NCBI RefSeq assembly: GCF_001625015.1
Contig: NZ_LVWJ02000014.1
Coordinates: 620,001-684,000 of the forward strand
Reading direction: 5' to 3'
Length of the DNA: 64,000 nucleotides
From: Lewinella sp. 4G2
GTDB lineage: Bacteria > Bacteroidota > Bacteroidia > Chitinophagales > Saprospiraceae
Position 1 is the stretch's first letter. Each line of letters begins with the position of its first letter. The notes below the pieces were generated by a model. That model was not told the DNA's origin and ran no database searches. It saw only the letters and a list, made by a program, of their open reading frames with translations. This document shows, piece by piece, positions 1 through 16,581 of this stretch. The translations under genes were made by a program, and so were the position numbers.

Positions 1-1463
1 AGCTGATCTCCGCCACCCGCAACGGGGAAACGATCGAACCTTTCGAGAAGAGTAGCCGAAGCCTGACGACCTTTTACCTCGGCTCCAAAGAGGAAACCCT
101 CCCGCCCGGAGAGTACACTTACGTATTTAACTATACGAGTGCGGATCAGATCTACTTCATGGAGTTCATCGACGAGATCCGGTGGCACCACATCGATACG
201 GATGGGAAACTACCCGTTGAGAAAGCCGACATCACCGTCCGCTTTACGGCCGGCACCAACATCCTGGGCGCCGACTGCTACGCGGGCCGGGAGGGCAGTA
301 ACGATGACGCCTGCACTGTGGTGACGGATCGCAACAAGGTCACCTTCACCGCCACTCGCCCCCTGCCCGCCGGTGAGGGGATGACGATCGGGGTGAGCGC
401 CCCCAAAGGCACTTTCGCCCGCCCGGCACTACCGACGCCACTGCAGCAAAAGGGCACCCTGTACGTCGTCCTGGCGGGTTTACTGACGGCTATCGCTTAC
501 GCATACACCAGTTGGAACCGCCACGGCCGTGACCCGATTGGGCCGGAAGTCACCCACGAATTTTACCCGCCGGAGGGCGTCTCCCCCGCCTCGGCCTTTC
601 ACTTGCTGAACAGCCATCAACACGGGAGCCTGGTTACCGCATCTCTGACGGCGCTGGCCATTGACGGATACATCAAGATTGAAGAACGAAAAGAGGACGG
701 ATTCCTCGGCCTCGGTAAAAAGGAGTACTTCGCCCTACTCCAAACGGATGAAGTCCCGACCGATAAGGACGTGCCGGCAGAGCAGTTCGCCCTCTACCAG
801 AAACTCTTCCAAAAATCCCGCATCATTGAGTTGGATGGAGATTACAACAAAGACCTCTACAAGGCGACCAAAGCCCACAACGACAGCATCCGCGAGCAGC
901 ACAAGGATTTCATCAAGGATGGAGCCAATGGCTGGAAGATCCTGCCCCTGGTGGGCATCTTCGTCGTCACCATTATTGCGGCAGTCCTGTTCATCAAAAC
1001 GGCGGACAGCATTGGGGTGGTGGCCTTTGGGATTAGCATCCCGTTGTTCTTCATCGTGCTGGGTCTCTACGCCTGGCTGATCCAACAGCCGAGCTACGGA
1101 AAGGTGGCCCTCAAGAACCGGCTCAAGGGTTTACGCAATTACCTCAAACTCTCCCGCCAGGACCGCGACGCCCTCGTGGATGCCCCGGAGATGACGGAGG
1201 AATATTTCCAGCAACTCCTCCCCTACGCCATCGCCTTCGGCCAGGATAACGACTGGGCCCACAACCTGACGACGGACCTGGCCAATACCGGCGAGCGGCA
1301 AATGAATGCCTATCCTTATTACATGACTGGCTTCACCAACCGTATGAATACCTCGTTCGCGGATACGGCCCACACGGCGACTTCCGGTGGCGGAGGCGGC
1401 GGTTCCTTTTCTGGGGGCGGCGGCTCCGTCGGCGGCGGCGGTGGCGGTGTTGGTGGCTTCTGA
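1..1463 (+). CDS. DUF2207 family membrane protein (5' end outside window)
   Basis: The frame is open from base 3 with no start codon, so the N-terminus (signal peptide and part of the DUF2207 domain) lies left of the window; about 486 residues are visible. The first 150 residues are an extracytoplasmic beta-rich region. A membrane helix follows near bases 465-505 (YVVLAGLLTAIAYAY), then a soluble part beginning HEFYPPEGVSPA, then two close helices near 945-1085. The last 25 residues are almost pure Gly/Ser (runs of GGGGG, ending GGVGGF). This order is typical of the YciQ/DUF2207 family, whose function is unknown; the Gly-rich tail is common in it. No partner gene is visible. Confidence is high for the family and nil for a biochemical role. 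Confidence 0.8.
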   Translation, partial: LISATRNGETIEPFEKSSRSLTTFYLGSKEETLPPGEYTYVFNYTSADQIYFMEFIDEIRWHHIDTDGKLPVEKADITVRFTAGTNILGADCYAGREGSNDDACTVVTDRNKVTFTATRPLPAGEGMTIGVSAPKGTFARPALPTPLQQKGTLYVVLAGLLTAIAYAYTSWNRHGRDPIGPEVTHEFYPPEGVSPASAFHLLNSHQHGSLVTASLTALAIDGYIKIEERKEDGFLGLGKKEYFALLQTDEVPTDKDVPAEQFALYQKLFQKSRIIELDGDYNKDLYKATKAHNDSIREQHKDFIKDGANGWKILPLVGIFVVTIIAAVLFIKTADSIGVVAFGISIPLFFIVLGLYAWLIQQPSYGKVALKNRLKGLRNYLKLSRQDRDALVDAPEMTEEYFQQLLPYAIAFGQDNDWAHNLTTDLANTGERQMNAYPYYMTGFTNRMNTSFADTAHTATSGGGGGGSFSGGGGSVGGGGGGVGGF

Positions 1464-1573
1464 TGGAGGCGCCTCTCTCTAACGTTGGATATGGGGCCGC
1501 TGGCCGCGGTTAATCTCCGGCGCTCAATACCGGTCGTCCCGAAGGGCCGGCCTACGTAGCGGTGGCACACCGT

Positions 1574-1747
1574 CAGGTGGCCCACTCTACTTTGCGACGG
1601 GTGCCCCACCCTACTTCGCGGCATTTGGCCCACTCTACTTTGCGTCAGGTGCCCCACTCTACTTTGCGACGGGTGGCCCACCCTACTTCGCGTCAGGTGG
1701 CCCACCCTACTCCGCGTCAGGTGGCCCCACCCCACCCTACTTCCCAG
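1574..1747. repeat. 24-bp tandem repeat, about seven units
   Basis: Six consecutive 24-bp units start at 1574, 1598, 1622, 1646, 1670 and 1694, followed by a seventh, longer and degenerate unit at 1718. The shared core is GTGGCCCACCCTACTTCGCG, with variation at a few fixed positions (CAGG/CGGG/CATT start; TTT/TTC before GCG). There are no unique spacers, so this is not a CRISPR array. It looks like a minisatellite and is probably length-variable between strains. Confidence 0.9.
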
Positions 1748-1837
1748 CATTCCACCCCTTTTTTCACGTAAGGAAATTGTGATACCGCTCTCCGTCCAAA
1801 ATTCGTGAACACTTCTAAAATGACCTGCTTAATCAAT

Positions 1838-1854
1838 GACCAACTAGGTTGGCC
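1838..1854. promoter_or_regulatory. inverted repeat upstream of the dioxygenase gene
   Basis: CCAAC-TAG-GTTGG (1840-1852), extended by partial pairing to 17 bp, lies 20-35 bp before the ATG at 1872. Position and symmetry suit an operator for a dimeric regulator, but a short chance palindrome is equally possible. Confidence 0.25.
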
Positions 1855-1871
1855 ATTTTAAGTATGCCGTC

Positions 1872-2648
1872 ATGATCCAAATCACGCCCCTCCAGCCTTT
1901 TGGCTGTTCAATTACCTCCGTCGATCTCCGTTCCGCCAGCGATCAGGAAGCACTGACCATTCGCAATGCCACCGCGACCCACGGCTTTGCGGTGATTCGT
2001 GACCAGCACGATCTGGGCGACACTTCCTTTGCTTCGTTCCTCCAGCAACTCGGCCCCTCCATGTTCACGAAGGGGGAGACGGCCGTGGCGGGCCACCCCT
2101 CCCTAAATTTGGTGACCAACGTCGGCCGCGATCGCCCGCCGCGTTCCGTCTGGCACACCGATACCAGCTACGTTCCCCAGCCGCCGGCCTTCACCGCGCT
2201 GCGGGTTATCCACGCGCCGGAGTCGGGTGGAGAAACCCTTATTGCCGACCAGCTAGCCGCCTACGATGAGCTTTCCGAGGACCTGAAAGCGAGGTTCAAA
2301 GAGTCCACCGTTCTGCACGGGGCTACCGGGGTCGACGACGATGCCTCCTGCCACCACCCCTTATTTCGGCGGCACTCGGAAACGGACCGTACCGCCATCT
2401 TCCTGTCTACCCCGCAGCGGTGCACGGCCATCTCCGGGGTTCCGGCGCAGGAGGCTGAGCAAATAATCAAGGACTTGTACGCTTTCGGTACCCAGGACCA
2501 ATTCGTCCACCGCCACGCCTGGAAAGCGGGCGACGTCCTGATTTGGGATAACCGCCGGACCCTGCACCGGGGCGATCACTCGGCCGTTATCGGTGATCGG
2601 GTGCTCCATCGTGGTATGGTCCGGGGAGAGGCGCCGCTACCCGTTTAG
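1872..2648 (+). CDS. TauD/TfdA-family Fe(II)/2-oxoglutarate dioxygenase
   Basis: 258 residues, the usual length of TauD-type non-heme iron oxygenases. The iron-binding H-x-D is at His95/Asp97 in VWHTDTSY, and the distal histidine is His232 in RRTLHRGDH. Arg243 or Arg247 (GDRVLHRGMVRG) would bind the 2-oxoglutarate carboxylate. These enzymes couple decarboxylation of 2-oxoglutarate to oxidation of a small molecule; the substrate cannot be read from sequence. The gene is convergent with mysD (114 bp between stops). It therefore sits beside a mycosporine pathway, in which a different 2OG oxygenase (MysH, phytanoyl-CoA dioxygenase type) is known to tailor products. A sunscreen-tailoring role is inference only; sulfonate or carnitine-like substrates are alternatives. 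Confidence 0.85.
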   Translation: MIQITPLQPFGCSITSVDLRSASDQEALTIRNATATHGFAVIRDQHDLGDTSFASFLQQLGPSMFTKGETAVAGHPSLNLVTNVGRDRPPRSVWHTDTSYVPQPPAFTALRVIHAPESGGETLIADQLAAYDELSEDLKARFKESTVLHGATGVDDDASCHHPLFRRHSETDRTAIFLSTPQRCTAISGVPAQEAEQIIKDLYAFGTQDQFVHRHAWKAGDVLIWDNRRTLHRGDHSAVIGDRVLHRGMVRGEAPLPV

Positions 2649-2693
2649 CAGCGCATCATCGGCCAGTTAAATAGGCTGCTCATCAATGGCTTG

Positions 2694-2710
2694 GGCGCTG
2701 CCGCGGGTGC
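2694..2710. repeat. 17-bp dispersed repeat, copy 1 (G variant)
   Basis: GGCGCTGCCGCGGGTGC in the 114-bp gap between the convergent dioxygenase and mysD stops. It is followed by AATGCAAGG, similar to the flank of the copy at 36516. Confidence 0.8.
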
Positions 2711-2762
2711 AATGCAAGGATCAAGTAAATAATGGAAGGGCCTGAACTCAGGGACAAAACCC

Positions 2763-3806
2763 TTAGCCTCGGTTAACCGCTGCGAGCCACATCCGTCGGG
2801 TCACCTCTCGTAGCTCAAGGTCCGCGGCTTCGAGCATGGTGGAGATCATACTCTTCTCACCAAACGACCAGAAAAGCCCCGCCTCCAGCAAATAGGGCAC
2901 CCCGGTGGATTGGTCAACCCGGAAATCGTAAAGGGAATAATCCCTACAGCCGAGGGCACGGTGCATCGTTAGCATCATGGTGCCTAACTGTTCCGTAAGA
3001 GCGTCATCTACTGCGGCGGGGCAGACGGCAGGCACGTTCTCCTTCGCCGATTGCCCGGCAACGTGACCATCCTCATCCGTGCGAAGCTTATCCTCCGCCA
3101 AACGGATGGGGTGCTCATCGTTTACCAGGTACTCAATGAAGGGCAGTACCCGCAGGGTGCCGTCCAACTCGATCACCGCGCCCCGGATCTCCCGGCCGGG
3201 AATGTATTTTTCTACGATTACCTCATCGTCGTACTGGCCCGCCAACCGCAGTGCCGCTTCCATTTCCGTAGGGTTTCGGACCAAAGTCAGCCCATCAGAA
3301 TTATCGGACTGGTTGGGCTTAACGATCAACGGGAAGCCCAGGGCGGACCAGTTTTTCTCCGCACGGGTATTGCTTCGCAGGTCGATCAGCAAACCCGGCG
3401 CCACCCGCACGCCCCGGTCGTTGGCAATCAATCGGGTAAGGTGCTTGTTCTGCGCTACGGTCAGCACCTCACTACCAGAACCCACCATCGGGTAGCCGAG
3501 GACATCCCCAAAAAGAGACCGGTAAGCCGTGAGGCCGGCGGGGCAGAACAGGTGGGGTACGACCAAGTCGATCTGCGGTAGACTTTGTAGGACTACGCTC
3601 AAATCCTGAGGTTCCGGTTGCGGTTCGGGGCTATCGCTCAGCGACCATTTCCCCGAAGGGTAAACGATCAAGAACAGCAGTTCGAAACCCACGGGTTGGA
3701 CGACCGAACTTGCGTAGAGCAGCGAGAGCTCGTAGAAGAACTCCAAGGTGGGTGACCCCATCACTTGCAGGGCGACCAATTTTGACGTGTCATGGTTAAT
3801 CTCCAC
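2763..3806 (-). CDS. mysD: MysD: D-Ala-D-Ala ligase-like ATP-grasp enzyme of mycosporine synthesis
   Basis: 347 residues with a D-Ala-D-Ala ligase fold. The N-terminal lobe ends with PQIDLVVPHLF. The ATP-grasp lysine lies in FPLIVKPNQSDNSDG (about residue 164) and the second strand is VIVEKYIPGREI. The C-terminal metal region reads YLLEAGLFWSFGEKS, so the Glu-x-Asn of true Ddl is altered, arguing against a cell-wall role. In known pathways MysD condenses mycosporine-glycine with a second amino acid (Ser in shinorine, Thr in porphyra-334) to give an iminomycosporine. It is the last gene of the operon and overlaps the mysC stop by 11 bp, which suggests translational coupling. Assignment rests on family features plus the unmistakable mysB/mysC neighbours; the amino acid used cannot be predicted. 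Confidence 0.88.
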   Translation of the reverse strand: MEINHDTSKLVALQVMGSPTLEFFYELSLLYASSVVQPVGFELLFLIVYPSGKWSLSDSPEPQPEPQDLSVVLQSLPQIDLVVPHLFCPAGLTAYRSLFGDVLGYPMVGSGSEVLTVAQNKHLTRLIANDRGVRVAPGLLIDLRSNTRAEKNWSALGFPLIVKPNQSDNSDGLTLVRNPTEMEAALRLAGQYDDEVIVEKYIPGREIRGAVIELDGTLRVLPFIEYLVNDEHPIRLAEDKLRTDEDGHVAGQSAKENVPAVCPAAVDDALTEQLGTMMLTMHRALGCRDYSLYDFRVDQSTGVPYLLEAGLFWSFGEKSMISTMLEAADLELREVTRRMWLAAVNRG

Positions 3807-5103
3807 CTACCTCCGCGATTTTACCAATGTTGAAATCGATGTGGGTCCAGTCTCTATCTTCAATGAGGCTGCGCAGCAACAGCATGGGAATCTGCACGTG
3901 GTTGATGAAGAAAAAAGGCAGCGGGTCCTCCCAGCTAAAGACGGCCTCTTTACCGCTCAGGATGCGGTTCAGGATGAATTCTACCTCTTCTATTCCCTCT
4001 GCCTTCCATAGGCGGTGAAGCTCGTGGTACCACCAGAAAGTGGGTTGGGTTCTGCTCAAGGGCCTCCATTCCTTTTCTCTTCTACTATCGCTTTCCCAGT
4101 ACGCCAACGCTGCCTCTGGTTGATCGTGAAACAGCGTGATGGCCGAGTGCGTGCGTGGATTACACTCGATGGGCATGACCTCCCCGTCGTCTCGAATGAT
4201 GAAGTCGAAAGAGGCCTGCCCCGTCCCGCCCAACTTACGGGCGAAGGTCTCCACCCAAGCGTGTACGTTGGGTAGATCAAGCATATCGTAGTTCACCTGA
4301 AAGGGTGACGAATCCGAGCAGATGTACAGCATCAGCTGGCCGTCCCTGATCGTAGAATGAGTACAAACCTCCCGGCCTTCGACGAATTCCTGGAGCACCC
4401 AGGGATGGTTCGGCGTAATGGGCAGGCCGGCAATTCGCTCGCGATATCCAGGGTGCGGCAACTTGCGCAGATCGAGCCGGAAGACCGGATCGTACTTGAT
4501 GCTCTTCAGGATGTACCGTTTACCCTCCGGGAACGAAAAATTGAGCAAGTCCTCCGTTGATTCAAAGCGGTGGGCCTCGGGGGCGGAAAGGCCAAAGGAT
4601 CGGCACATCTCCCCAAAGGCGAACTTATCGTCTAACGCTTCGATCACATCCTCATCAAAATGGAATACTTCCGCATACCGACTCAATTGGGGTTTAATGC
4701 GGGCGTCATGCAGCGCCGCAGCCGGGCTGGCTACGGGAACGACGAGGTCCACGTTTTCCTCAACGATGATGGATTCCAGGGCGCGGCCGTAGGCGCTGCT
4801 ATCACCGTTGGAGAATTTTGGAATCACGTGAAAGGCCGCAACGGACTCCGAAAAGCGCGTCCCACAGTACCGATAATCGGGTGTCTCTACGGCCACAACC
4901 CTATCTCCCAACGAATGAAACATCCTGGCCAATTGCAGGCACTTGGTCATCTTCCCACCGGTCAGCAGTACGGTTCTACCGGACGGGCGGACGGGCGGAC
5001 GTTCCCGGAACGACAACCTTACTACGGCCACCGCGGTCAGCAATGCTGCCGGCACGGCACAAAGCGTTAGTACGGCCAGCGCACCAAGTGTTTTAATCCT
5101 CAT
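3796..5103 (-). CDS. mysC: MysC: ATP-grasp ligase making mycosporine-glycine
   Basis: 435 residues. It starts with a hydrophobic segment (about residues 5-30), as remembered for cyanobacterial MysC. Family blocks follow: TGGKMTKCLQLAR, FHFDEDVIEALDDKFAF, RYILKSIKYD, LQEFVEGREVCTHST, and IECNPRTHSAITLFHD with the metal-binding Glu and Asn. The C-terminus, IDFNIGKIAEVGGD, closely resembles the end of the Anabaena homologue as I remember it. The enzyme phosphorylates 4-deoxygadusol and joins it to glycine. The gene lies 8 bp after mysB and overlaps mysD, so it is mid-operon. The N-terminal helix suggests membrane association. This is one of the two strongest calls in the operon. Confidence 0.93.
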   Translation of the reverse strand: MRIKTLGALAVLTLCAVPAALLTAVAVVRLSFRERPPVRPSGRTVLLTGGKMTKCLQLARMFHSLGDRVVAVETPDYRYCGTRFSESVAAFHVIPKFSNGDSSAYGRALESIIVEENVDLVVPVASPAAALHDARIKPQLSRYAEVFHFDEDVIEALDDKFAFGEMCRSFGLSAPEAHRFESTEDLLNFSFPEGKRYILKSIKYDPVFRLDLRKLPHPGYRERIAGLPITPNHPWVLQEFVEGREVCTHSTIRDGQLMLYICSDSSPFQVNYDMLDLPNVHAWVETFARKLGGTGQASFDFIIRDDGEVMPIECNPRTHSAITLFHDQPEAALAYWESDSRREKEWRPLSRTQPTFWWYHELHRLWKAEGIEEVEFILNRILSGKEAVFSWEDPLPFFFINHVQIPMLLLRSLIEDRDWTHIDFNIGKIAEVGGD

Positions 5104-5111
5104 GGCGGCGC

Positions 5112-5924
5112 TTAACTAATCCGTCGGATTAAAGTGAGCCCATCGCGGATGGGGAGCAACACCTGTTCCACGCGCTGGTCCTGATTAACCATATCGTTGA
5201 AGTGAATCAGCGCCTCACCGTTCTCGCTCACTTTTTCACGGGCGTATACTTGGCCTTGGTACAGTGTGTTGTCCACGCAGATTAAGCCGCCAACCGGTAC
5301 GAGGTCGTGGTCAAGCAGGGTTTGGAAGTAGTTCAGGTAGCCTTGTTTATCGGCGTCGATGAAGACCAGGTCAAAGCGCTGTCCTTCAGCAACGAGTTCA
5401 TCGAGGGTATCGGAGGCTGGCCCGACGCGGATGCTCACTTTCTTCCCGGCGGGGCTGGCCCGTAGGTGGCGCTCGGCGAAGCCGGCCGCAAAAGCGTCGT
5501 ATTCACAGGCAATCAACTGGCCATCCGCAGGCAGTGCCTCCGCCATAGCTAACGAAGCGTAACCGGTAAACGACCCGATCTCTAGGATTCTTTTCGCCCC
5601 GGAGATCGCCACCAGTAGCCGCAGGAACTGCCCTTCCAATTTACCGGAGACCATTTCCTGTTCCAGCTCCAGGGAAGTTTGCCCCGCATCGAATGCCGCT
5701 TTCCAATTGATGGCGCGCGTAGCCGTTTCCAGTGCCTCCAAAGATGCCGACGGCGCCGTAGAGCTCCGCTCCAGGTAATCTTCCAGCGGGGCGGCGAGCG
5801 AATGGCAGCGACCTAGAGCCGCCAACCAGTTCGCTTCGGTCGCAGTGGCTACCATATTCTCGTGGAGGCTTTCTATTTCCGCTGCCAGAATGGAATGCGG
5901 GGTAACGGGGCGAGCAGTTAGCAT
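5112..5924 (-). CDS. mysB: MysB: SAM-dependent O-methyltransferase of mycosporine synthesis
   Basis: About 270 residues from the ATG at 5924. An ATG at 6002 is also open but would overlap the HAD gene by 62 bp; the chosen start gives the N-terminus MLTARPVTPHSILAAEI, which fits known MysB proteins. It is a class I (caffeoyl-CoA type) methyltransferase: SAM motif ILEIGSFTGYASLAMAEALP, acidic metal motif FIDADKQGYLNYF, then GLICVDNTLYQGQVY and the closing VLLPIRDGLTLIRR. In the pathway it methylates desmethyl-4-deoxygadusol to 4-deoxygadusol. It starts 17 bp after the HAD stop and ends 8 bp before mysC. Confidence 0.92.
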   Translation of the reverse strand: MLTARPVTPHSILAAEIESLHENMVATATEANWLAALGRCHSLAAPLEDYLERSSTAPSASLEALETATRAINWKAAFDAGQTSLELEQEMVSGKLEGQFLRLLVAISGAKRILEIGSFTGYASLAMAEALPADGQLIACEYDAFAAGFAERHLRASPAGKKVSIRVGPASDTLDELVAEGQRFDLVFIDADKQGYLNYFQTLLDHDLVPVGGLICVDNTLYQGQVYAREKVSENGEALIHFNDMVNQDQRVEQVLLPIRDGLTLIRRIS

Positions 5925-5940
5925 CGGCGGAAGGTTTGCT

Positions 5941-6624
5941 TTAGGCGGAAAAATAGTCGCGGATCGGGATGCTCTCGGCGGAAGCGTAAACGGCATCGGC
6001 AATGTTATCTACCGGCGTTCCCCGGTGGTTCTCCCCGAGGGTAGCAATGGTGTAGATGCCGGCGCCCTTAGCGGAAAGGATGGAGTTGATGGAATCCTCT
6101 ACCGCCACGCAGTCGTCTGCTTTTACCCCGAAGTGCTTCAGCGCCGCCTGGTAGATATCCGGTGCGGGCTTACCCTGGGGCGCGTCCTCAGCGTGGAAAA
6201 TGTGGTCGAAATCATCAGCGGAAAGTCTCTCGCCCGCCGCCGTCAACAGGGCTCCCGTGTTGTCTTTCGACGTTGAGGTAACCCAGGCAACTTTCGCGCC
6301 GGACTTCTTTGCAGCCCGGATCAGGTCGACTACACCGGGCCGGGGCGATACTTTTTGATCTACGATCGACTTACCGGCCAGGTCCGTCTTACTGGTGTGG
6401 ATCTTGTTGATTGTATCCTCGGATAGCTCCTGCCCCGTCGAAGCGGCCAGGGTTTCCAAGCGGTGGATACCCCCGCTCGTCTGCAGTAGCTTTTTGTAAG
6501 TGGGCAAGGTCCAGTGCCAGTTCAAGCCCTGGTCTTTAAGTGCCTGGTTGTAGGCCTGGCGCTGGAGCTCCGAAGTCTCGGACACAACCCCGATGGACCC
6601 AATGAAGAGTACGGATGGTTTCAT
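5941..6624 (-). CDS. HAD-superfamily protein without motif I aspartates, inside the mys operon
   Basis: 227 residues, close to beta-phosphoglucomutase/CbbY-type HAD proteins in layout. Motif II (AWVTSTS), motif III (QGKPAPDIYQAAL) and motif IV (CVAVEDSINSI) are intact. Motif I should read L-F-D-x-D-G-(T/V), but reads LFIGSIGVV: residue 8 is Ile and residue 10 Ser. Both the nucleophile and the acid/base aspartate are therefore missing, while the following S/E-T-S-E-L-Q-R-Q-A helix is well kept. The gene is co-directional between mysA (69 bp) and mysB (17 bp), so it is part of the operon. A phosphatase acting on a phosphorylated cyclitol would be expected here, but without motif I a binding, regulatory or scaffold role is more likely. 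The motif may characterise a natural subfamily rather than a recent mutation. Confidence 0.85.
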   Translation of the reverse strand: MKPSVLFIGSIGVVSETSELQRQAYNQALKDQGLNWHWTLPTYKKLLQTSGGIHRLETLAASTGQELSEDTINKIHTSKTDLAGKSIVDQKVSPRPGVVDLIRAAKKSGAKVAWVTSTSKDNTGALLTAAGERLSADDFDHIFHAEDAPQGKPAPDIYQAALKHFGVKADDCVAVEDSINSILSAKGAGIYTIATLGENHRGTPVDNIADAVYASAESIPIRDYFSA

Positions 6625-6693
6625 TAGTTAAGTAGTTATAGAGGTGATGAGATTCCCGCGCAAAAGCGCAGTATTTTTCGCTAAACAGGATGG

Positions 6694-8409
6694 TTAAGAA
6701 ACCGTGGCAATAGCCGGTTTTTTGATCGGTTCGAAGTGGCCGGTTACCGAAGGATTTTCCAGGCCAACTTCGTGGCAGTGCGCTTCTACACCCAGTCCCT
6801 GGCGGGGGAACAATTCACATAGTTGTTGGTAATCGGCGAGTGCGGAAGCGAGGTCTTCCCGGGTAAGTTCATTGAGGTAGCCACAGGTACCAATGCCTCC
6901 TTTCGGTAGCGGAGCGGCTAGGTTGCCACCGCGTTTCTGCGTCACGCGCTCCTGTGCTTCGAAGATCAGGTCGCTTTCCTCCAGAACGGGGTGCCAGAGA
7001 CTAAGCTCGAAGTTGCTGATCAAGCGCATGATCCGGTCCCGTTCCTCGGCGGTGATCCACCCCTGCAGGTAGCTGAGGTAGGCGCCGAATCCCATCCCAC
7101 AACCCACGGCGTGGCCGTGTAGCATGCCCGATGGAATTTCGAAGCCCGGCGACCAGGTATGCCCGTACGCATGGGGGCGGCACTGGTGGGTTTCGTAAAG
7201 GTTACCGTACTCCGCCTCCACGTAACTCCGCATCGCGGCGGAGAGCACCCGGTTCCCCCGTTCCTTCAGGTCTGCGGAATTGGTATCCGCGCCAAAGTGG
7301 GTATCCACCAGCGCGAAGCCGGTTTCCTCCAGCAATTCAAATAGGGCCAGGTCCTTTACGACGGCCATCTTAATGATCTCGGCGACGCCGTGCCGCATCC
7401 ACCCCTTGCGCAAGGAGCGGAAGAAGGTCCGGTCCGTGATGGTCATCACGGGCGCGTGGTAAGCGCCGAACAGGTTTTTGTAGCCGTGCCCGTCGCAGCA
7501 GGTACGGGGGGAAGGCCCGGCATCAATTCCAGCAACAATTGAGGTGGCCAGCATCACGTAGGGGGTATTTCGGTGGTACAGGGCGCAGGCCAGGCCGGCG
7601 GTATCCGCCAGTACTCCACCTCCGACTACCAGGACCGGCTCCTCGCGGGATACACCGGCATTCTTGAAATCACCGAGGAGTAGTTCGACCATTCTGATGC
7701 CCTTATCCACTTCCATGGCGCGGTACACCAGCTTGGTCAGTTTGATCCCGTGGTAAGCAAAGTAAGCGTTAATCTCCTCACCGTAGTGCTCTTCCACATT
7801 GGCATCGACGACGCTCACGCAGCGGCCCAGTGGTTGGTAAAGCTTCAGCAGTACGTCACTCTCGAAGTTCAGTACGTCCTCGGTGATGAGGATTTCGGTC
7901 ATGGCTGACGTCGACATCACGGCTTCGATGCGCTGCCCGTCGCCTTCGTAGGTGACCTGACCCGAAGAATTACGGTAGCTCGAGGTGGGGTAGATCGCGT
8001 GTGGATCCTCCTCTTCCAGCCGGGAGAAAAGTTGCTCGTAGAACTCCCGCTTCCCCCCTTTCAGCAATAGCTTCTTAAGGGCATTTTGGCCGTTTGGTCC
8101 CGTTCGCACGTCAGCGGCGAACCGTTCCCACGTGAGTAGCTCGGTGGGTGTCAGGTTGGCCGCAAGCCTGGTGAGTAGCGTAAACAACTTGCCTACGGGC
8201 ATCGCGTAGACCGTCTTCAGTTGCCGCAGCGCGGATACGGATTCAACGCCGAGACCGGCAGCGCTACTGCTGTGAGAGAAGCCCTCAGAAAAGGCATCGG
8301 CCTGGCGAAGCAGCTCGACCAAAACACGAAAGCTATTGCTCTCTAACGTTGATTGTAGTGACTCGGGAGTAGGTAATTGTTTAAAGGCGCTGGCAATTCT
8401 TGTAAGCAA
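6694..8409 (-). CDS. mysA: MysA: sedoheptulose 7-phosphate cyclase (DDGS-type) with N-terminal extension
   Basis: 571 residues against about 410 for typical members; the extra 150-160 residues are N-terminal and not recognised. The cyclase domain begins near STSAMTEILITEDV. It has the NAD-binding VLVVGGGVLADTAGLACALY, then PYVMLATSIVAGIDAGPSP, YKNLFGAYHAPV, GVAEIIKMAVVKD and the metal histidine region AYGHTWSPGFE with a later MLHGHAVG. Family members cyclise sedoheptulose 7-phosphate to desmethyl-4-deoxygadusol, 2-epi-5-epi-valiolone or 2-epi-valiolone. Sequence alone does not settle the subtype, but mysB and mysC downstream point to desmethyl-4-deoxygadusol. The only start between the upstream stop (8425) and the first internal ATG is TTG at 8409, so the exact N-terminus is uncertain. 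First gene of the operon. Confidence 0.87.
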   Translation of the reverse strand: MLTRIASAFKQLPTPESLQSTLESNSFRVLVELLRQADAFSEGFSHSSSAAGLGVESVSALRQLKTVYAMPVGKLFTLLTRLAANLTPTELLTWERFAADVRTGPNGQNALKKLLLKGGKREFYEQLFSRLEEEDPHAIYPTSSYRNSSGQVTYEGDGQRIEAVMSTSAMTEILITEDVLNFESDVLLKLYQPLGRCVSVVDANVEEHYGEEINAYFAYHGIKLTKLVYRAMEVDKGIRMVELLLGDFKNAGVSREEPVLVVGGGVLADTAGLACALYHRNTPYVMLATSIVAGIDAGPSPRTCCDGHGYKNLFGAYHAPVMTITDRTFFRSLRKGWMRHGVAEIIKMAVVKDLALFELLEETGFALVDTHFGADTNSADLKERGNRVLSAAMRSYVEAEYGNLYETHQCRPHAYGHTWSPGFEIPSGMLHGHAVGCGMGFGAYLSYLQGWITAEERDRIMRLISNFELSLWHPVLEESDLIFEAQERVTQKRGGNLAAPLPKGGIGTCGYLNELTREDLASALADYQQLCELFPRQGLGVEAHCHEVGLENPSVTGHFEPIKKPAIATVS

Positions 8410-8611
8410 AACAGTGAATTTAGGTTAGGATAATTGTGGGTCACAAAGCCCTCGCAATACATAATTGCGGGCCTAACTGAAGTCGCTGCAGAAAGTTTAT
8501 CGACAGTTTTTCCCAACAATTGGATCGCGTGATTAACAATATCACTACGAGAATCCTGCAATTATTCATACTGATTGGCGGCTTCTCGTACCATGATTTC
8601 AGATCCATTCG

Positions 8612-8628
8612 GGCGCTGCCGCAGGTGC
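8612..8628. repeat. 17-bp dispersed repeat, copy 2 (A variant)
   Basis: GGCGCTGCCGCAGGTGC in the mysA/Ddl-PASTA divergent spacer. Its last bases run into a small perfect hairpin. Confidence 0.85.
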
Positions 8629-8880
8629 CACATTGTGTGGCAAGAACGCAAAAGGATGCCCTGACGAATCATTCGCCTGCGCCCTAAAATTGGGTATCAG
8701 AAATCAATGTTGGCGCTAGCTGACGGTGTACCCACCCAGTCCAATATTAGCTCCCTCGCCGGGCACCAGATCCAACAATGCCCTCACCCTAAAGGACTAC
8801 TAAACGGCTCTAACTCCAGCGCATCCTCCCCCCACCCCTACGGATACTAAACCAATAAAACACGTCCCGCCCCCGCGCGT

Positions 8881-8888
8881 TACCTTCG
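8881..8888 (+). promoter_or_regulatory. -7 promoter element of the Ddl-PASTA gene
   Basis: TACCTTCG, one base off the Bacteroidota -7 consensus TAnnTTTG, 36 bp before the ATG at 8924. No obvious -33 TTG. Confidence 0.4.
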
Positions 8889-8923
8889 TGGCTGCTTTTC
8901 ATCACTCCCGTAGCCGGTAGCTC

Positions 8924-11900
8924 ATGCGCATCAAAGTAGGCATCTTTTTCGGCGGCCCCAGCCGCGAACGTGAAATCTCTTTCGCCGGCGGGCGGACGGT
9001 CTACGACAACTTGGATAAGGCCCTCTTCGAGCCCGTCCCCATCTTCGTGGATAGCCACCGCAAGTGGCACCTGCTGGACTGGCAGTACCTCTACCGGGGC
9101 ACGATCCGCGACTTCTTCCCACCCATCGACCTGGCACCCGCGTCAGCGCATGGGTTCCAAGTGTACCAGGAAAGCTTGGGGCCTTTGGATGAGCTCAGCC
9201 TCGAAGCCATGGGCAAGAAAATCGGCCGCCGCCTCCGCCGCCACGAACTGCCGGAACTGATCGACGTCGCTTTCCTCGCCCTCCACGGCGAATACGGGGA
9301 GGATGGCCAACTCCAAAAAGAACTCGAATACGCGGGCATCCCCTACACCGGCTCCGGCGTGGAGGCCAGCGAGATCGGAATGGACAAGGCCGTCCAGAAA
9401 CAATTAATGCAGGCAGAAGGCTTCCCTTCCCCGCCCATCCTCGTCATCGAAAACGGTGATTTCGACGGGCGCCAAGTCCAGGAACACTACTACGCTGCGG
9501 AGCAGGAGATTGGCTGGCCCATGGTCGTGCGCCCCGCCCGACAGGGCAGCTCCATCGGGGTGGCTATCCTTAAAGAATCCGACGGGCTGGAAGGCTTCGA
9601 GCGCGCCGTTAACGCGGCCTTCTTCCGGGAGCTCCTCCCCCTCAATGAATACGAGGCCCGCGATGAATTTGAGCGCCTCGAATACGTCCGCAACCTCAGC
9701 GATCTGCGCGACGGCGTGGCCTTCCCCATGGACGCCAAACGGGGCGAACGGGAGATCACCCTCTACACCCCCGACGAACTTTTCGACTACCTCGAAACCG
9801 CCGTGGCCGACCCGGCCGGCTACCCCCTCGTCGTGTTTACCGGCCACCAGTCCGAGGAACGTGTCATCGTGGAAGGTTTCATCGACGGCAAGGAGTTTTC
9901 CACCATCGTGCTGCGGACGCCCGATGGCCGCGCCGTCGCCCTCCCCCCCACCGAGATCGTCAAGCCCAGCAGCGAGCTCTTCGATTACCGCTCCAAGTAT
10001 ATGCCCGGCCGCAGCCGCAAGGTTACGCCGATCGATCTGCCGACCGAACGCATCCAGGCCATCCGCGCCGAGTGTGAGCGGCTCTACGAAACCCTCGGCT
10101 TCCACGTGTACGCACGCATCGATGGTTTCCACACCAAGAGCGGGGAGATCTTCCTCAACGACCCGAACACCACGTCGGGGATGATGCCCTCCAGTTTCTT
10201 TTTCCACCAGGCGGCGGAGATCGGCCTCAACCCCAGTCAGTTCCTCACCTTCATCATTCGCCAGTCTTTGCGCGAACGCGGGTCCGGAGCAAAGGGGATG
10301 GAGGTCGCCCAGGAGTTGGGGACCGCGCTCGACGCAGCGATGGACGCCGCCAAGTCCGCCGCCAACGTCAAGGAGAAAATTGGGGTGATCCTCGGTGGCC
10401 CCAGCTTCGAACGCCACATCAGCGTAGAGTCCGGCCGCAACGTTTTTGAGAAACTGGCGTCGAGCGAAGGCTACCGCCCCATCCCCCTCTTCCTGGAAGC
10501 CACCGGTAAGGGGACTGGCCGCGACGCCTACCAACTGCACCAGCTACCGATCAACCTATTATTAAAGGACAACGCCGACGACATCCGCGACAAGCTGCGC
10601 CACTCCCGCGAGCACGCCGTCATCGCCGAGATCCGGGATGCCTGCGAAGACATTACCGACCGGTACGCGGACCGCGATGTCGTTTTCCACCCCGAACAGA
10701 TTGAGTGGAAGGACCTGCCCCGCCTCGTTGATGGCGCCTTCATCGCCCTCCACGGCCGGCCGGGAGAGGACGGGCAAATCCAGTCCATCCTCGAACCACT
10801 GGGGATCTACTACAATGGCTCCGGCATCGCCAGCAGCCGCGTGACGATTGATAAGTTCGCCACCCTCCGCACTCTCCAGAAAGCAGGATTACCCGTCACC
10901 GAACAGTGGCTCGCCCCCGTTGCGGAATTTCGCGCGGACGAGATGGCTTTCTACGACCAGGTGGAGCAGCGCTTTGGCTACCCCCTCATCGCCAAACCGG
11001 TGGATGACGGCTGTAGCTCCGCCGTCGTCCTCATCAAGGACCGGCAGGAACTCATCGCCTATACCCACCTGACCTTCCGCCCGGCCGGCCTCAACGAACG
11101 GGCCGCCCGCAAGGAGTTAAAGGTCAACGCCAAAGATGAGTGGCCGAGTGGCAAGGAAACCATCCTCTTCGAACGGGCCATCACCGCTGAGGGGGCCGCA
11201 AAGTTCCTGGAGATTACCGGTGGCATGCTCACGCACTACGGGGTGGACGGAGAAGTCCGTTACGAAGTATTCGAACCCAGTGAGACGCTGGCTGGCGGAG
11301 AGATCCTCAGCCTCGAGGAGAAGTTCCTGGCCGGAGAAGGGCAAAACCTGACGCCCGCCCGCCTGGGGACGGACCAACACAGCTACGCCATGATCGCCGG
11401 CCAGGTGAAGGCCGACCTCGAAAAGGCCGCCCGCGCCGTCGCCGTGGAGGGGTACTGCCGCATCGATGCTTTCGTGCGAATCCAACCCGACGGTACGGCC
11501 GTTACGGTACCCATCGAGGTGAACAGTTTGCCGGGGATGACGCCGGCTACGGCCATCTTCCACCAGGCCGCCCTGGCCGGGTACCAACCGGCGGAGTTTA
11601 TTGCCCGCATCCTCGCCTACGGGAAGTCCCGGCGGGATCGGTCGCTGGCCGCGAAAAAGCCCGTTACCCCTACTCCAGCTGCCGCTACTACGGCCGCTAC
11701 CATAATTCCTACCGCTGAGGCTCAGTCCTCCGTATCCGCCCCATCTACCGGTGCGCTTCCTACGGACCCGGCACCTGCGGCAGCGCCCACCGCCGGAGGC
11801 AGTAACGCGGCAAAATTGTCCGGTGCTGCAGCAGTAGCAACGTCCGGAACCGTTTACGATAAATTAATGGCGGATGAACCGACCGCCACTACCCCCGCTA

Positions 11901-12745
11901 CCCCCGCTACGCCCATGACCGCCGATGCACCCGTTAAAACTGGCTTCGTACCCAGTACCCTGGCCCTCCTGAAGAGTGGCTACCTGTGGAAGAACATTGC
12001 CGCAATGTTGCTCTTCTTCCTGCTTTGTTTCTTCGTGGTCAAGTACGGCATCCAGGCGTACACGAGCCACGGGGCCAGCCTCGAACTGCCCGATTTCGTG
12101 GAGATGCAACGCGCGGACGCCGAAGCCCTCGCCGATGACCTCGGCCTCAAACTCAAATTTGAAAAGGGCGCTTTCGACCCCAGCCGCCCACCGGGGACGG
12201 TGACGCGGCAGCACCCCAAGGCGGGCGCCGGCGTGAAGCGGAACCGCAGCATCTACCTCACCATCCTCACGGACGAGGCGCCGATGATCAAACTACCGCC
12301 ATTGACGGGCGAATACGACTATACACAGTACACGACCCGCCTTTCGCGGATGGGCGAGATCTCCTCCAAGATCCGCGAACAGGTGTACGACGGCAAGCAG
12401 GAAGAAAACACGATTCTCCACTTCTTCTACGGCGACCAAAAGATCACCGAGGATGACCTGAAAGGGGGCCGTGTAGAAGTGCCGAAAGGTGCTGAGTTGG
12501 AGTTCGTCGTGACCGTCCGGGAAACCGGCGAGGTGAAGGTGCCCAGCCTCCGCTGCAAGACCTTTGGCGAGGTAGAATTCTTGCTCGATGGCTCCGACCT
12601 CATCGTCGGGAACATCTACGGCAACGTAGCCAGCCGGAGTGATGCATACGTCGTGCGCGTAGAACCCAGTGAGGGCACGATGGTGCCGGTGGGTTCCAAA
12701 TTCAACGTTTACCTCTCCGATAGCCGGCCCGCCAATTGTGACTAA
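8924..12745 (+). CDS. double D-Ala-D-Ala ligase / membrane helix / PASTA fusion protein
   Basis: 1273 residues. Module 1 (about 1-450) and module 2 (about 484-905) each have a Ddl layout: GGPSREREIS and GGPSFERHIS, ALHGEYGEDGQ and ALHGRPGEDGQ, GSGVEASEIGMDK and GSGIASSRVTIDK. Module 2 keeps the metal motif EVNSLPGMT; module 1 reads NDPNTTSGMM and has Arg for the usual ATP-site Lys (VVRPARQGSS). A Pro/Ala/Thr linker (906-1015) precedes one membrane helix (about 1025-1047, AAMLLFFLLCFFVV). The C-terminus has a clear PASTA domain (about 1052-1113), a diverged one, and a third starting VKVPSLRCK. The ligase part would be cytosolic and PASTA periplasmic, where PASTA domains commonly bind peptidoglycan fragments. 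In many Bacteroidota, ddl sits next to a PASTA membrane protein, so a gene fusion plus ddl duplication is plausible. Which module is active is unknown. Confidence 0.85.
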   Translation: MRIKVGIFFGGPSREREISFAGGRTVYDNLDKALFEPVPIFVDSHRKWHLLDWQYLYRGTIRDFFPPIDLAPASAHGFQVYQESLGPLDELSLEAMGKKIGRRLRRHELPELIDVAFLALHGEYGEDGQLQKELEYAGIPYTGSGVEASEIGMDKAVQKQLMQAEGFPSPPILVIENGDFDGRQVQEHYYAAEQEIGWPMVVRPARQGSSIGVAILKESDGLEGFERAVNAAFFRELLPLNEYEARDEFERLEYVRNLSDLRDGVAFPMDAKRGEREITLYTPDELFDYLETAVADPAGYPLVVFTGHQSEERVIVEGFIDGKEFSTIVLRTPDGRAVALPPTEIVKPSSELFDYRSKYMPGRSRKVTPIDLPTERIQAIRAECERLYETLGFHVYARIDGFHTKSGEIFLNDPNTTSGMMPSSFFFHQAAEIGLNPSQFLTFIIRQSLRERGSGAKGMEVAQELGTALDAAMDAAKSAANVKEKIGVILGGPSFERHISVESGRNVFEKLASSEGYRPIPLFLEATGKGTGRDAYQLHQLPINLLLKDNADDIRDKLRHSREHAVIAEIRDACEDITDRYADRDVVFHPEQIEWKDLPRLVDGAFIALHGRPGEDGQIQSILEPLGIYYNGSGIASSRVTIDKFATLRTLQKAGLPVTEQWLAPVAEFRADEMAFYDQVEQRFGYPLIAKPVDDGCSSAVVLIKDRQELIAYTHLTFRPAGLNERAARKELKVNAKDEWPSGKETILFERAITAEGAAKFLEITGGMLTHYGVDGEVRYEVFEPSETLAGGEILSLEEKFLAGEGQNLTPARLGTDQHSYAMIAGQVKADLEKAARAVAVEGYCRIDAFVRIQPDGTAVTVPIEVNSLPGMTPATAIFHQAALAGYQPAEFIARILAYGKSRRDRSLAAKKPVTPTPAAATTAATIIPTAEAQSSVSAPSTGALPTDPAPAAAPTAGGSNAAKLSGAAAVATSGTVYDKLMADEPTATTPATPATPMTADAPVKTGFVPSTLALLKSGYLWKNIAAMLLFFLLCFFVVKYGIQAYTSHGASLELPDFVEMQRADAEALADDLGLKLKFEKGAFDPSRPPGTVTRQHPKAGAGVKRNRSIYLTILTDEAPMIKLPPLTGEYDYTQYTTRLSRMGEISSKIREQVYDGKQEENTILHFFYGDQKITEDDLKGGRVEVPKGAELEFVVTVRETGEVKVPSLRCKTFGEVEFLLDGSDLIVGNIYGNVASRSDAYVVRVEPSEGTMVPVGSKFNVYLSDSRPANCD
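11771..11787. repeat. 17-bp dispersed repeat inside the Ddl-PASTA linker
   Basis: GCACCTGCGGCAGCGCC, the reverse orientation of the intergenic copies at 2694 and 8612, read in frame as A-P-A-A-A-P from residue 950 within the Pro/Ala/Thr linker. Confidence 0.85.
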
Positions 12746-12916
12746 GTAGCTGACCATTAGGCATAAAGGTTGGTTGGACCCGTTTTGACGCCAATAAGTT
12801 GGCACTGATATCCGAACCGATGATGGTTTATGAGAAGCACTGGGGAAGACCATAAAAGGTCTGTCCCCACAAATTATTCTCCGAGCCCCGGCGTTGTATA
12901 CCCCCAAGAACAGAAC

Positions 12917-15406
12917 ATGATTACAAGATTACTCGCTACGACGGCCCTGTTTATTTTGGCGCTGACCAGCCTTGCGGCCCAGTTCACCATCCAGCCGCTC
13001 GGCGGATACGACACGCCCGGGAGTGATGCTCAAGGAACACCGGTGGAAAAGGTCGATTGCCAACCGATAGACGAAACCGCCTTCACCTTGCTCCGGCCCG
13101 GAGCGTCGCTGGAGCGGCTGATTCAGCCGGACACCTTCAACCTTGAAGGCCCCATCACCTACGCCTGCCAGGGCTGTAACGTGGCGGCGGGTGGCCAGGC
13201 CCTTTTGCGCCGGGATACGCTGATCTACACCGCCAATGCGGACGTGGAAGAAGTGGCCGACACCCTCATCGTACAGGGTTGCGGAAGCGATGGCGAATGT
13301 GGCGAAGAGACGGTGATTGTTATCGTCGTCCAGCGAGAAGGCCGCACCGTCAACCTGCCCACGCAAACCGCGCAACCAGGGCAGAAAATCAACGTAAGCG
13401 GGCCGGCTGATGACTTTGCGCGCAAGGCTTTCTGCCGCTCCATCGAAAACTGCGCGCCGGATTACCTCGGCCGCGACCAACGTTTCTTCTTCATCAATAG
13501 CCAGGCGGAAAGCAACGATTTTGCCTACACGGCCGCGCGCTACGGTGGTACGGATGCCGTGTGCATTCAACTCTGCACTGCATTTGGTTTGTGCGACACT
13601 TACCGTACGGAGATCAACATCAACCGTCCCAGCCTGGGCCTCCCCTTCGTGGATGATTTTAGTGAAGATAACTTCCGCCCGGACGCCAGCTTGTGGCAGG
13701 ACCGGGACGTGCTGATCAACCGGACCTTTGCCCAGCAGCCGCCATCGGTAGGGGTAGCGACCTTTGACGCCGTCGCGTCGGATGGAGCAGCCTACGCTAT
13801 TTCCGGCAGCAACCGGCCGGCCGTCCGGGACTACCTTACTTCCGCGCCCCTCAAAATGAACGGGCAGGATGGTGCGGCCCTCAGCTTCTTTTTGCAACCC
13901 CGTGGTTTGGGTAACCGGCCTGAGCGACAGGACAGCTTCGTCGTCCAATTCTTGCACCCGGAGGGTGATTTCCGCACGGTCCTGGGCGTTGGCGGCCGCT
14001 CCACTACGGAGCCGAGCACGGTCCCCCTCCCCTTCGAGCCCTACCTCATTATGCTCGACGCTGACTACCTCTATGACGGTTTTACCTTCCGTTTTGCCAA
14101 CAAGAGTAGCGAACGAGGAGCGGTAGACATGTGGCACCTCGACTACGTCAAACTGGCCCGGGAAGACAATGATATCACTACGGATGATTTGGCGCTGACG
14201 CAGGTGCCGGGTTCGGTACTGGGGCCACTTACGAGCCTCCCGTTGCGCCACTTCCAGGCGGCGGACGATAACCTGGTAGCTCCGGGGATCGAAGTTGGAG
14301 TATTCAACGTATCCGACGGAGCCATTGAACTCTCCAGCGGAAAGGAAAGTGAGATCACGGTCCTGACGCCGGATTTCAACGTAGTTGCCCTCGGCAACCT
14401 CCAGAATGCGGACGTCACGAACCTCCCCAATAGTTTTCCTTCCCTGACGACCGTTGACCGGCCACTGAACGAAAATTGGACCGGGCTCAGCGCAGTGGAG
14501 AATTACCTGAATGGCCTGCCGCTTACGGAAGAGCCCGTAATTCTGGATACCCGCTTCACCCTCTCCCCGGCGGGTGGTGCTGAATCCAGCTCGCCCGGCT
14601 TCTTGAAAACCCGCGAAAACAACGAACTCTCCACACTCACGATTCTGGACGAGTACATGGCTTACGACGATGGCTCCGCCGAAGCGACCATTGAGTTGAC
14701 GGAGGGGACGGTCACGCTCCAACGTTACGTCGCGTACGTGGAGGATGAACTGCGCGGCATTCAAGTGCGCATCCCCCGGGGCCTGGCCAGTTTCGGTAAC
14801 CAGCAACTGCGGTTGGTCGTCTACTCCGGAGACGCGGAGCCGGACGAACTGATTTACAGCGAAGATTTTGACATCGTCGTACCGGAAGACATCCTGCGCG
14901 ACTCCCTCGAAGGGTTCACGACCTACATTTTTGATACACCGTTCCCCCTTACCGAAGGCGTATTCTTTGTGGGGTGGGAACAGCAGCGGAGTACCGTCCC
15001 CGTCGGAATTGGCTACGACCGAAATACGGCGCCCGCAGCGGGCACGCAATGGTTCAACTTTGGTAGCGGTTGGCGGCAACTGGCCGGCAGCGTCTCGGGT
15101 GCTTTGATGCTCCGCCCTCTGCTGGGTGGTTTCGAAGGCTTTACAACTAGCACACCGGATACGGAACTAGCTACCTCACTCATTGAAGTGTTCCCTAACC
15201 CTACCGACGGTGAACTACGCATCCGCCCAACGGGTGATCTACAATTGAACAACCTGCAATTGCAGCTATTCAGCGCGACGGGCGCTTTATTGCAATCTGC
15301 CACTGGTGTGGATCGTCTCGACCTGCGGAGTTACCCGGCCGGTCTCTACCTGCTGGAGGTGACGGACGGTGCGCGGCGCAGCCAACACAAGATCATCCGC
15401 CAGTAA
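12917..15406 (+). CDS. large secreted protein with T9SS type A sorting domain
   Basis: 829 residues from the ATG at 12917; the longer open frame adds 29 residues before an obvious signal peptide, MITRLLATTALFILALTSLAAQ. The body has no domain I can name: Cys-rich segments around residues 60-90 (CQGCN, CGSDGECGEE) and 165-210 (CRSIENC, CIQLCTAFGLCD), then beta-rich stretches. The last 80 residues are a classical T9SS C-terminal sorting domain: IEVFPNPTDGELRI, a middle LQLFSATGALL, and a final GLYLLEVTDGARRSQHKIIRQ. It should be exported by Sec, then by the type IX system, and anchored or released at the cell surface. The substrate or partner is unknown. It may be transcribed with the Ddl-PASTA gene (171-bp gap) or alone. 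Confidence 0.85.
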   Translation: MITRLLATTALFILALTSLAAQFTIQPLGGYDTPGSDAQGTPVEKVDCQPIDETAFTLLRPGASLERLIQPDTFNLEGPITYACQGCNVAAGGQALLRRDTLIYTANADVEEVADTLIVQGCGSDGECGEETVIVIVVQREGRTVNLPTQTAQPGQKINVSGPADDFARKAFCRSIENCAPDYLGRDQRFFFINSQAESNDFAYTAARYGGTDAVCIQLCTAFGLCDTYRTEININRPSLGLPFVDDFSEDNFRPDASLWQDRDVLINRTFAQQPPSVGVATFDAVASDGAAYAISGSNRPAVRDYLTSAPLKMNGQDGAALSFFLQPRGLGNRPERQDSFVVQFLHPEGDFRTVLGVGGRSTTEPSTVPLPFEPYLIMLDADYLYDGFTFRFANKSSERGAVDMWHLDYVKLAREDNDITTDDLALTQVPGSVLGPLTSLPLRHFQAADDNLVAPGIEVGVFNVSDGAIELSSGKESEITVLTPDFNVVALGNLQNADVTNLPNSFPSLTTVDRPLNENWTGLSAVENYLNGLPLTEEPVILDTRFTLSPAGGAESSSPGFLKTRENNELSTLTILDEYMAYDDGSAEATIELTEGTVTLQRYVAYVEDELRGIQVRIPRGLASFGNQQLRLVVYSGDAEPDELIYSEDFDIVVPEDILRDSLEGFTTYIFDTPFPLTEGVFFVGWEQQRSTVPVGIGYDRNTAPAAGTQWFNFGSGWRQLAGSVSGALMLRPLLGGFEGFTTSTPDTELATSLIEVFPNPTDGELRIRPTGDLQLNNLQLQLFSATGALLQSATGVDRLDLRSYPAGLYLLEVTDGARRSQHKIIRQ

Positions 15407-15499
15407 TACGAGCTTGTTTCCCGATCAATTTTACCCGAATGCCGCGGCCGCTAATCTAAAGCAGCCATCAGGCGTTCTCTCGAAAAAATAGATACCACT

Positions 15500-15799: not shown

Positions 15800-15801
15800 A
15801 G

Positions 15802-16389: not shown

Positions 16390-16551
16390 GGGGCAAAAGT
16401 TAAAATTCGGCGAATTATCTGCCGGAGCGCAATAATCGGGACGAAGACGGTATTATTGTGAACACGTACGAAAAACGGATTGCACTTCTGTTTCGTTTTC
16501 CGTGCGATCAAGAATTGTTTAAGTGTTTGCTTTTTGGAAAGACCGTTTTCG

Positions 16552-16581
16552 GAGGCGCCCAACAGGGCGCCTCTTTTTTTT
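16552..16581 (+). terminator. Rho-independent terminator with no upstream gene
   Basis: GAGGCGCCC-aaca-GGGCGCCTC stem (16552-16573, with one junction base) followed by eight T. The nearest upstream plus-strand gene ends at 15799, beyond an oppositely oriented gene, so this probably ends a short unannotated transcript. Confidence 0.85.

Follow-up and report, generated by a model that had tools for sequence, protein, structure and literature searches.

Results

Gene content of the mys locus in Lewinella sp. 4G2

The DNA studied here is a stretch of 64,000 nt from Lewinella sp. 4G2, a member of the Bacteroidota (contig NZ_LVWJ02000014.1, positions 620,001 to 684,000), which is referred to below as the window. 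Between positions 2763 and 8409 its minus strand carries five genes in the order cyclase, HAD protein, O-methyltransferase, MysC and MysD, and all five frames are intact and open. Our sequence analysis indicates that this is an intact variant of the operons for mycosporine-like amino acid (MAA) sunscreens, in which a known core is combined with a cyclase from an uncharacterised clade and with known HAD and TauD/TfdA partners, and in which the most surprising feature is the loss of catalytic residues from the HAD protein. The locus consists of the following features.

1872-2648, plus strand: TauD/TfdA Fe(II)/2-oxoglutarate dioxygenase (PF02668, 183 bits), convergent with the MysD gene
2763-3806, minus strand: MysD, D-Ala-D-Ala-ligase-like second ligase; GTG start; Dala_Dala_lig_C, 81 bits
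3796-5103, minus strand: MysC ATP-grasp ligase; NF005315, 383 bits; similar to MysC of Nostoc HK-01
5112-5924, minus strand (frame open from 6002): MysB O-methyltransferase; Methyltransf_3, 196 bits
5941-6624, minus strand: HAD-fold protein of the CbbY type with GSIG replacing DxD, a predicted pseudophosphatase; Pfam HAD families; CbbY 4uat is the best match by sequence and by fold
6694-8409, minus strand: long-type MysA, a sugar phosphate cyclase related to DDGS, with an N-terminal helical extension and a GPSPRTCCDGHGYKN loop; 571 aa; TTG start; DHQ_synthase and DHQS_C

A preliminary description of this DNA had recognised the tight five-gene array on the minus strand, and both the open reading frames (ORFs) and the Pfam matches agree with it, but its inventory left out the TauD/TfdA gene, which is separated from the MysD gene by a gap of 114 nt. 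For MysB, homologues favour the ATG at 5924 (270 aa) over the ORF limit at 6002, so that the methyltransferase gene is clear of the HAD gene. The MysC and MysD genes overlap by 11 nt. An Rfam scan of positions 1-20000 gave no match.

MysB, MysC and MysD are homologous to known mys proteins

The methyltransferase and both ligases are homologous to the proteins of the mys cluster on a Nostoc HK-01 plasmid, with identities of 51% for MysB, 46% for MysC and 40% for the MysD-type second ligase, and MysD shares 52% of identity with that of Nonlabens. MysC has no Pfam match at E 0.001, and its score against NF005315 lies under the cut-off of 406. In a tree it clusters with 37 other MysC proteins, apart from four other ATP-grasp proteins, with a support of 100. 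The C-terminal sequences that the preliminary description had pointed out in MysB and MysC do recur in their families: P(I/L/V)RDG is found near the C-terminal end in 35 of 35 related MysB proteins, and IDFNIGK, present at the C-terminus of the window MysC, lies close to the C-terminus in 36 of 37 related ones.

The cyclase falls in a sister clade of characterised DDGS

The cyclase matches DDGS 5tpr with 294 bits (residues 173-544), EEVS 4p53 with 174 bits and DHQS with at most 86 bits, and it is 40% identical to the Nostoc HK-01 cyclase over 368 aa. Its AF2 model (pLDDT 86.9) also finds its best fold match in 5tpr. Ahead of residue 173 the protein has 172 residues, compared with 26 in most canonical MysA proteins, that is, an N-terminus about 145 residues longer, of which residues 1-135 are modelled mainly as helical. 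A loop is altered to GPSPRTC. E344, H417 and H431, which we take to be the metal-ligand positions, are kept.

When GTDB species genomes were scanned with the cyclase as the query, 65 loci were obtained; the patterns used came from the window's own peptides and favour close relatives. Alignment of the long cyclases from 61 of these loci (four broken or partial ones omitted) with those of L171, L172 and the window gave 64 sequences. The positions of L267, D281 and H360 in ValA, which are E, A and T in 5tpr, reportedly matter according to the work of Kean et al. 2014. With the residue numbers mapped onto 4p53 in the present analysis, E400 and A414 match 5tpr in the window and in all 64 long sequences, while K492 is like neither 5tpr nor ValA. 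R302, D306 and K492 are likewise found in 64 of 64 long cyclases; the residues at these positions are R, N and K in eight of eight mid-length cyclases and K, N and T in 19 canonical ones.

In a maximum-likelihood tree of 64 rows, the long (100/99) and mid-length (95/99) cyclases are sisters (100/99), and canonical MysA together with 5tpr is the sister to this pair. The clade that unites all of them (100/99) leaves out ValA EEVS 4p53, three EEVS/EboD-like proteins and five AroB proteins, with the reservations that rows named EEVS-like may be EboD, that some AroB branches are very long and that the root is unsure. On these alignments and trees the window cyclase is placed next to characterised DDGS, in a sister clade, and not with EEVS or AroB. 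An identity as EEVS or DHQS was rejected on the tree and the residues, and one as canonical MysA on a position outside the canonical clade. The preliminary description had held that a grouping of MysA with EEVS or DHQS enzymes of unrelated pathways would refute a sunscreen operon; the cyclase falls instead in the 5tpr DDGS clade, so that the operon is not refuted by this test, although the protein is not the canonical MysA. The description had overlooked the divergent long type of the cyclase and the lost DxD of the HAD protein.

The long cyclase probably does the job of MysA

In an even sample of 292 cyanobacterial genomes, taken across the phylum of genome G455, true MysC (at least 374 bits) was found in 31, and four more had weaker matches of 107-118 bits. 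Canonical MysA (at least 594 bits to the 5tpr segment) is present in 19 of these 31 genomes, a mid-length cyclase in eight, a divergent one in G487 and only a long one in three (G455, G463 and G602). No long cyclase was found in the remaining 28 MysC genomes, while three of the 261 genomes without MysC contain one. If the kinship of the genomes is ignored, the pattern of 3/3 versus 0/28 has a chance of 1 in 4,495, or of 1 in 435 without the seed G455. Because of this exclusion pattern we suggest that the long cyclase probably does the same job as MysA, as a functional replacement. In a second set of 31 genomes, picked from the 65 loci for their long cyclase, no canonical MysA was found (0/31), while 12 have MysC and the same 12 have a full-length MysB. 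A side finding in G487 (locus L177) is a cyanobacterial MysC beside a cyclase of about 420 aa that is neither canonical, mid-length nor long, and beside a weak MysB-like gene (80 bits); this cyclase is possibly a further MysA variant.

Another explanation sees in the long cyclase a C7-cyclitol synthase of different function, and in the product of the operon a related non-MAA or new-core metabolite decorated by homologues of MysB, MysC and MysD. Several observations point in this direction and weigh against a MysA-like role. The clade is distinct from its sister DDGS, and its invariant R302 and K492, shared as R and K by the mid-length cyclases, are unlike the residues of both DDGS and EEVS; residues 305-315 are also of low confidence in the AF2 model. 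A DUF6492 gene follows the long cyclase within 480 nt in 44 of the 65 loci, only one of which, L034, has MysC at the same locus, and 19 of the 31 long-cyclase genomes are without MysC (17 cyanobacteria, one Pelagibacteraceae and one Puniceicoccaceae); this frequent pairing and these genomes suggest that the clade probably serves another pathway too. In addition, a clade near DDGS is labelled 'DDGS?', with an activity that is possibly different, in the legend to Figure 7 of a 2016 tree (PMC5133447), and for some of the 292 genomes the scoring covered just 6 first-look candidates out of as many as 15, so that a second cyclase could have been missed. Against a different synthase stand the exclusion pattern itself, the retention of E400 and A414, the mid-length cyclases, which share the same R and K and lie near MysB and MysC in eight of eight loci, and the MysC proteins of long-type and mid-type cyanobacteria, which interleave (L139 with L179 and L183, SH-aLRT 98 in a quick tree). 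We therefore consider a different synthase improbable and retain the replacement of MysA as the preferred explanation. The DUF6492 protein of about 340 aa (for example L006:9643-10782) is found in cyanobacteria, Pelagibacteraceae, Puniceicoccaceae and the Flammeovirgaceae metagenome-assembled genome (MAG) L034, and its pairing with the cyclase may represent a second pathway with the same cyclase.

The HAD protein lacks both catalytic aspartates

The HAD protein (model pLDDT 92.7) is closest to CbbY 4uat, both by sequence (112 bits) and by fold (TM 0.87, 33% identity); this structure is of a D10N mutant and contains xylulose 1,5-bisphosphate. Motif I, which is FDVDGT in the Cupriavidus CbbY, reads GSIG in 14, GGIG in three and GAIG in one of the 18 copies found in clusters, which are not fully independent, as the three GGIG copies belong to close Haliea/Halioglobus relatives. 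DxD has thus become GxI in 18 of 18 copies, with Gly in place of the nucleophile Asp and Ile in place of the second Asp. G9, I11 and G12 are invariant in 17 of 17 copies, and so are T116, K152, E176 and D177, which presumably represent motifs II (T/S), III (K) and IV (acidic). The protein consequently shows motifs II-IV of a phosphatase of the CbbY type without the DxD of motif I, and no substitute nucleophile is retained at motif I because its middle residue varies among Ser, Gly and Ala. As controls, six of 24 plasmid-borne HAD relatives were inspected, five with DxD and one with GSIG, and two other HAD proteins of the Lewinella genome matched by the query both retain DxD. The plasmid relative with GSIG is a stand-alone HAD on pROLI81 of Roseobacter litoralis B14 (L173:8001-8672); its neighbours are TrkH and an L,D-transpeptidase, and the annotation shows no mys gene for 8 kb around it.

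These comparisons suggest that the HAD protein is probably a conserved pseudophosphatase and not a working phosphatase. An ordinary phosphatase was rejected as the first-choice role on account of GxI in all cluster copies and DxD in most controls. Since the catalytic aspartates are lost and the other motifs kept, its most likely function is to bind, but not to hydrolyse, a sugar phosphate or a phosphorylated intermediate, for example in partnership with the cyclase. One could argue instead that it still works, as a phosphatase or phosphomutase, through unusual residues, for example by trimming sedoheptulose 1,7-bisphosphate for the cyclase: its closest structure was solved with a ketose bisphosphate, and the four residues of motifs II-IV are invariant. 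We give this little credence, given that both Asp are lost in every copy, that the residue between them is not constant and that DxD persists in most of the plasmid relatives inspected and in the other two HAD proteins of the genome. What does count against a central role for a non-hydrolysing HAD is that it is missing from five of six cyanobacterial long-type mys loci as fetched, so that the core pathway seems not to need it. Beyond this, we speculate that the pathway uses a second kind of DDGS with an altered phosphate loop, and that a dedicated but catalytically dead HAD keeps the sugar phosphate bound for this enzyme or passes it on. A pseudophosphatase would then be one of the functional components with which Bacteroidota, Pseudomonadota, Planctomycetota and at least one cyanobacterium make their sunscreens; this proposal is tentative and, in our own estimate, more likely wrong than right.

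Related clusters and the TauD/TfdA dioxygenase

Sixteen non-cyanobacterial loci have MysC, several of them ending at contig ends. MysA, HAD, MysC and MysD occur together in all 16, in varying order, and MysB in 15, the exception being L046, which is cut by a contig end. The records, many of which are MAGs whose labels may be wrong, are labelled within the Bacteroidota as Nonlabens antarcticus, Aquimarina sp. U1-2, Flavobacteriaceae, Saprospiraceae, Cytophagales and Flammeovirgaceae, and otherwise as Polaromonas, Haliea, Halioglobus, Rhodospirillaceae, Rhodospirillales, unclassified (alpha)proteobacteria and Planctomycetaceae. Nonlabens antarcticus JCM 14068 has the order A-HAD-B-C-D with no TauD found at the locus, and Aquimarina sp. 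U1-2 has the same kind of operon with TauD. Non-cyanobacterial loci with a long cyclase but without MysC are those of Pelagibacteraceae (L052-L055), Puniceicoccaceae (L057) and a truncated planctomycete (L037).

The TauD gene accompanies mys genes in six of the 16 loci and in L139, a locus of the cyanobacterium Oscillatoria sp. CS-180 (L139:3735-8783) that reads HAD-TauD-MysB-MysC-MysD, with the long MysA elsewhere (L006). The window TauD is 39-50% identical to its seven cluster relatives, and H95, D97, H232 and R247 are invariant in eight of eight sequences, which indicates an intact dioxygenase active site; we take H95, D97 and H232 to be the HxD...H iron ligands and R247 the 2-oxoglutarate arginine. 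Its presence in six of the 16 related clusters suggests that TauD probably belongs to the mys cluster as a tailoring enzyme, even though it lies on the opposite strand in the window and was not found in the other 10 loci, some of which are cut short. HAD and TauD occur in one of six cyanobacterial long-type loci, and neither was found in 15 cyanobacterial loci of other cyclase types (six canonical, eight mid-length and G487; 11.7-18 kb each). A search of plasmids for a Nostoc TauD, aimed at reaching MysI, found none among six records at E 1e-25.

Distribution and origin of the operon

The cyclase was sought in 20 congeneric genomes and in 16 more from the family, and no match exceeded 97 bits; the matches obtained resemble AroB or EEVS/EboD-like proteins. 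True MysC was found only in Lewinella sp. 4G2 among 395 genomes of the phylum (six others have matches of at most 77 bits) and among 298 genomes of the order (two other matches, 91 and 97 bits), and only in Nonlabens itself, the seed, among 299 genomes of its family. The GTDB-genome scan gave no actinobacterial cluster, and a plasmid search yielded one MysC, from Nostoc. The window and five Bacteroidota group together for both MysA (96/84) and MysC (SH-aLRT 99, quick tree), while the Flammeovirgaceae MAG L034 lies elsewhere. Because both trees join them, the operon, patchy as it is, seems to have a line of descent in the Bacteroidota.

The same sporadic occurrence, with no cyclase of the long kind in 20 congeners and a single true MysC in the order, would also be expected of a silent or decaying acquisition that makes no product. 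We regard this as very unlikely, since all six frames are open, the active-site positions of the cyclase and TauD are kept, and the change in the HAD protein is common to all copies seen. The GC content of the five operon genes (0.555-0.579) also resembles that of the window (0.578), and no foreign base composition is seen; the GC content of TauD is 0.625.

Right of the operon, 8924-12745 on the plus strand encodes a protein of 1273 aa in which two D-Ala-D-Ala ligase modules in tandem are combined with PASTA domains at the C-terminus; 20 of the 21 genus genomes, Lewinella sp. 4G2 included, have a relative of it. Insertion of the operon into a conserved site is not shown: 17 flanks around this gene in the genus, from part of the genomes with a match and in L224 only 3.3 kb long, have no mys, TauD or DUF2207 gene. 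Among them, L228 matches an ORF that lies 12-14 kb left of the window with 183 bits, and L225 another left-hand ORF with 34 bits.

Other features of the window

An array at 1571-1732, between the DUF2207 gene and TauD, repeats a 24-bp unit about 6.7 times (a period of 72 bp is an alternative reading), and a two-copy repeat of 119 bp lies at 39411-39652. A pigment gene on the minus strand at 58316-59797 encodes the carotenoid 3,4-desaturase CrtD (564 bits, cut-off 500). The window also encodes a sorting domain of the T9SS and a protein resembling PorE, both consistent with Bacteroidota, as are the closest relatives of its MysA and MysC.

Discussion

Taken together, gene content, family membership, phylogeny, co-occurrence and the active-site residues kept or lost in the cyclase, HAD and TauD make it probable that this operon makes an MAA sunscreen; the individual reactions, the identity of the product and what HAD and TauD do in the pathway are all inferred from these data. 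In the proposed scheme, the long MysA would convert sedoheptulose 7-phosphate to desmethyl-4-deoxygadusol, MysB would methylate this to 4-deoxygadusol, and MysC would add glycine to give mycosporine-glycine. MysD would then attach a second amino acid, probably Ser or Thr, to give a compound of the shinorine or porphyra-334 type, while a palythine-type product may arise if TauD oxidises one of the amino-acid arms, and HAD would bind, but not hydrolyse, a sugar phosphate or phosphorylated intermediate, for example beside the cyclase. The product is thus likely a shinorine/porphyra-type MAA and perhaps one of the palythine type; the literature searched reports no product from the present cluster.

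If this is true, some Bacteroidota make MAA sunscreens, which would change the attribution of MAAs in mixed communities. It would also give an uncharacterised clade beside DDGS its likely function and turn the so far unexplained HAD of MAA clusters into a testable pseudoenzyme question. The claim is directly checkable in two named strains with an operon of this kind, Nonlabens antarcticus JCM 14068 and Aquimarina sp. U1-2.

The preliminary description had considered the pathway little described in Bacteroidota and had noted additional genes. The 2025 GATOR-GC preprint (PMC11888242) already describes HAD and TauD/TfdA in MAA clusters of Actinomycetota, Pseudomonadota and Bacillota, but 'Bacteroid' is absent from its text. 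Judged from the listings of the open-licence literature, no report of a Bacteroidota MAA cluster was found, and an earlier one elsewhere is possible; the listings of two natural-product surveys of Bacteroidetes/Flavobacteriaceae (PMC9248904 and PMC10734526) do not contain 'mycosporine-like amino acid'.

The clusters of the preprint, which we know from their description only, resemble the present one in having HAD and TauD beside the cyclase, O-methyltransferase, ATP-grasp and Ddl-like ligase. According to the preprint, Cyanobacteriota have neither HAD nor TauD; both are present, however, in Oscillatoria sp. CS-180. The lost HAD motif is seemingly undiscussed there, as neither 'catalytic' nor 'phosphatase' appears in the main text. 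The preprint also cites unpublished work on a Rhodococcus operon with HAD and TauD that yields shinorine, palythine and palythine-serine. MysI of Nostoc sp. UHCC 0926 is, by its description in PMC10510106, likewise an enzyme of the TauD/TfdA family in MAA clusters, and is proposed to act on the glycine at C3 to give a palythine-type intermediate; by analogy with MysI and with the Rhodococcus work, the TauD of the window may have a palythine-forming role. The 'DDGS?' clade of PMC5133447 and the second MysA clade of PMC10510106, again compared by description, lie near DDGS and may equal the long/mid-length clade found here.

Compared with the cyanobacterial mysABCD genes of Anabaena/Nostoc (DDGS 5tpr), MysB, MysC and MysD are homologous over most of their length and the cyclase core has the same fold with E400 and A414 as in 5tpr, but the window cyclase forms part of a separate clade with an N-terminal extension, R302 and K492, and HAD and TauD are added to the operon. 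Similarly, the HAD protein shares its fold and most motifs with the xylulose-1,5-bisphosphate phosphatase CbbY, but while the D10N change of 4uat is a mutation, the window protein is naturally without both aspartates of DxD.

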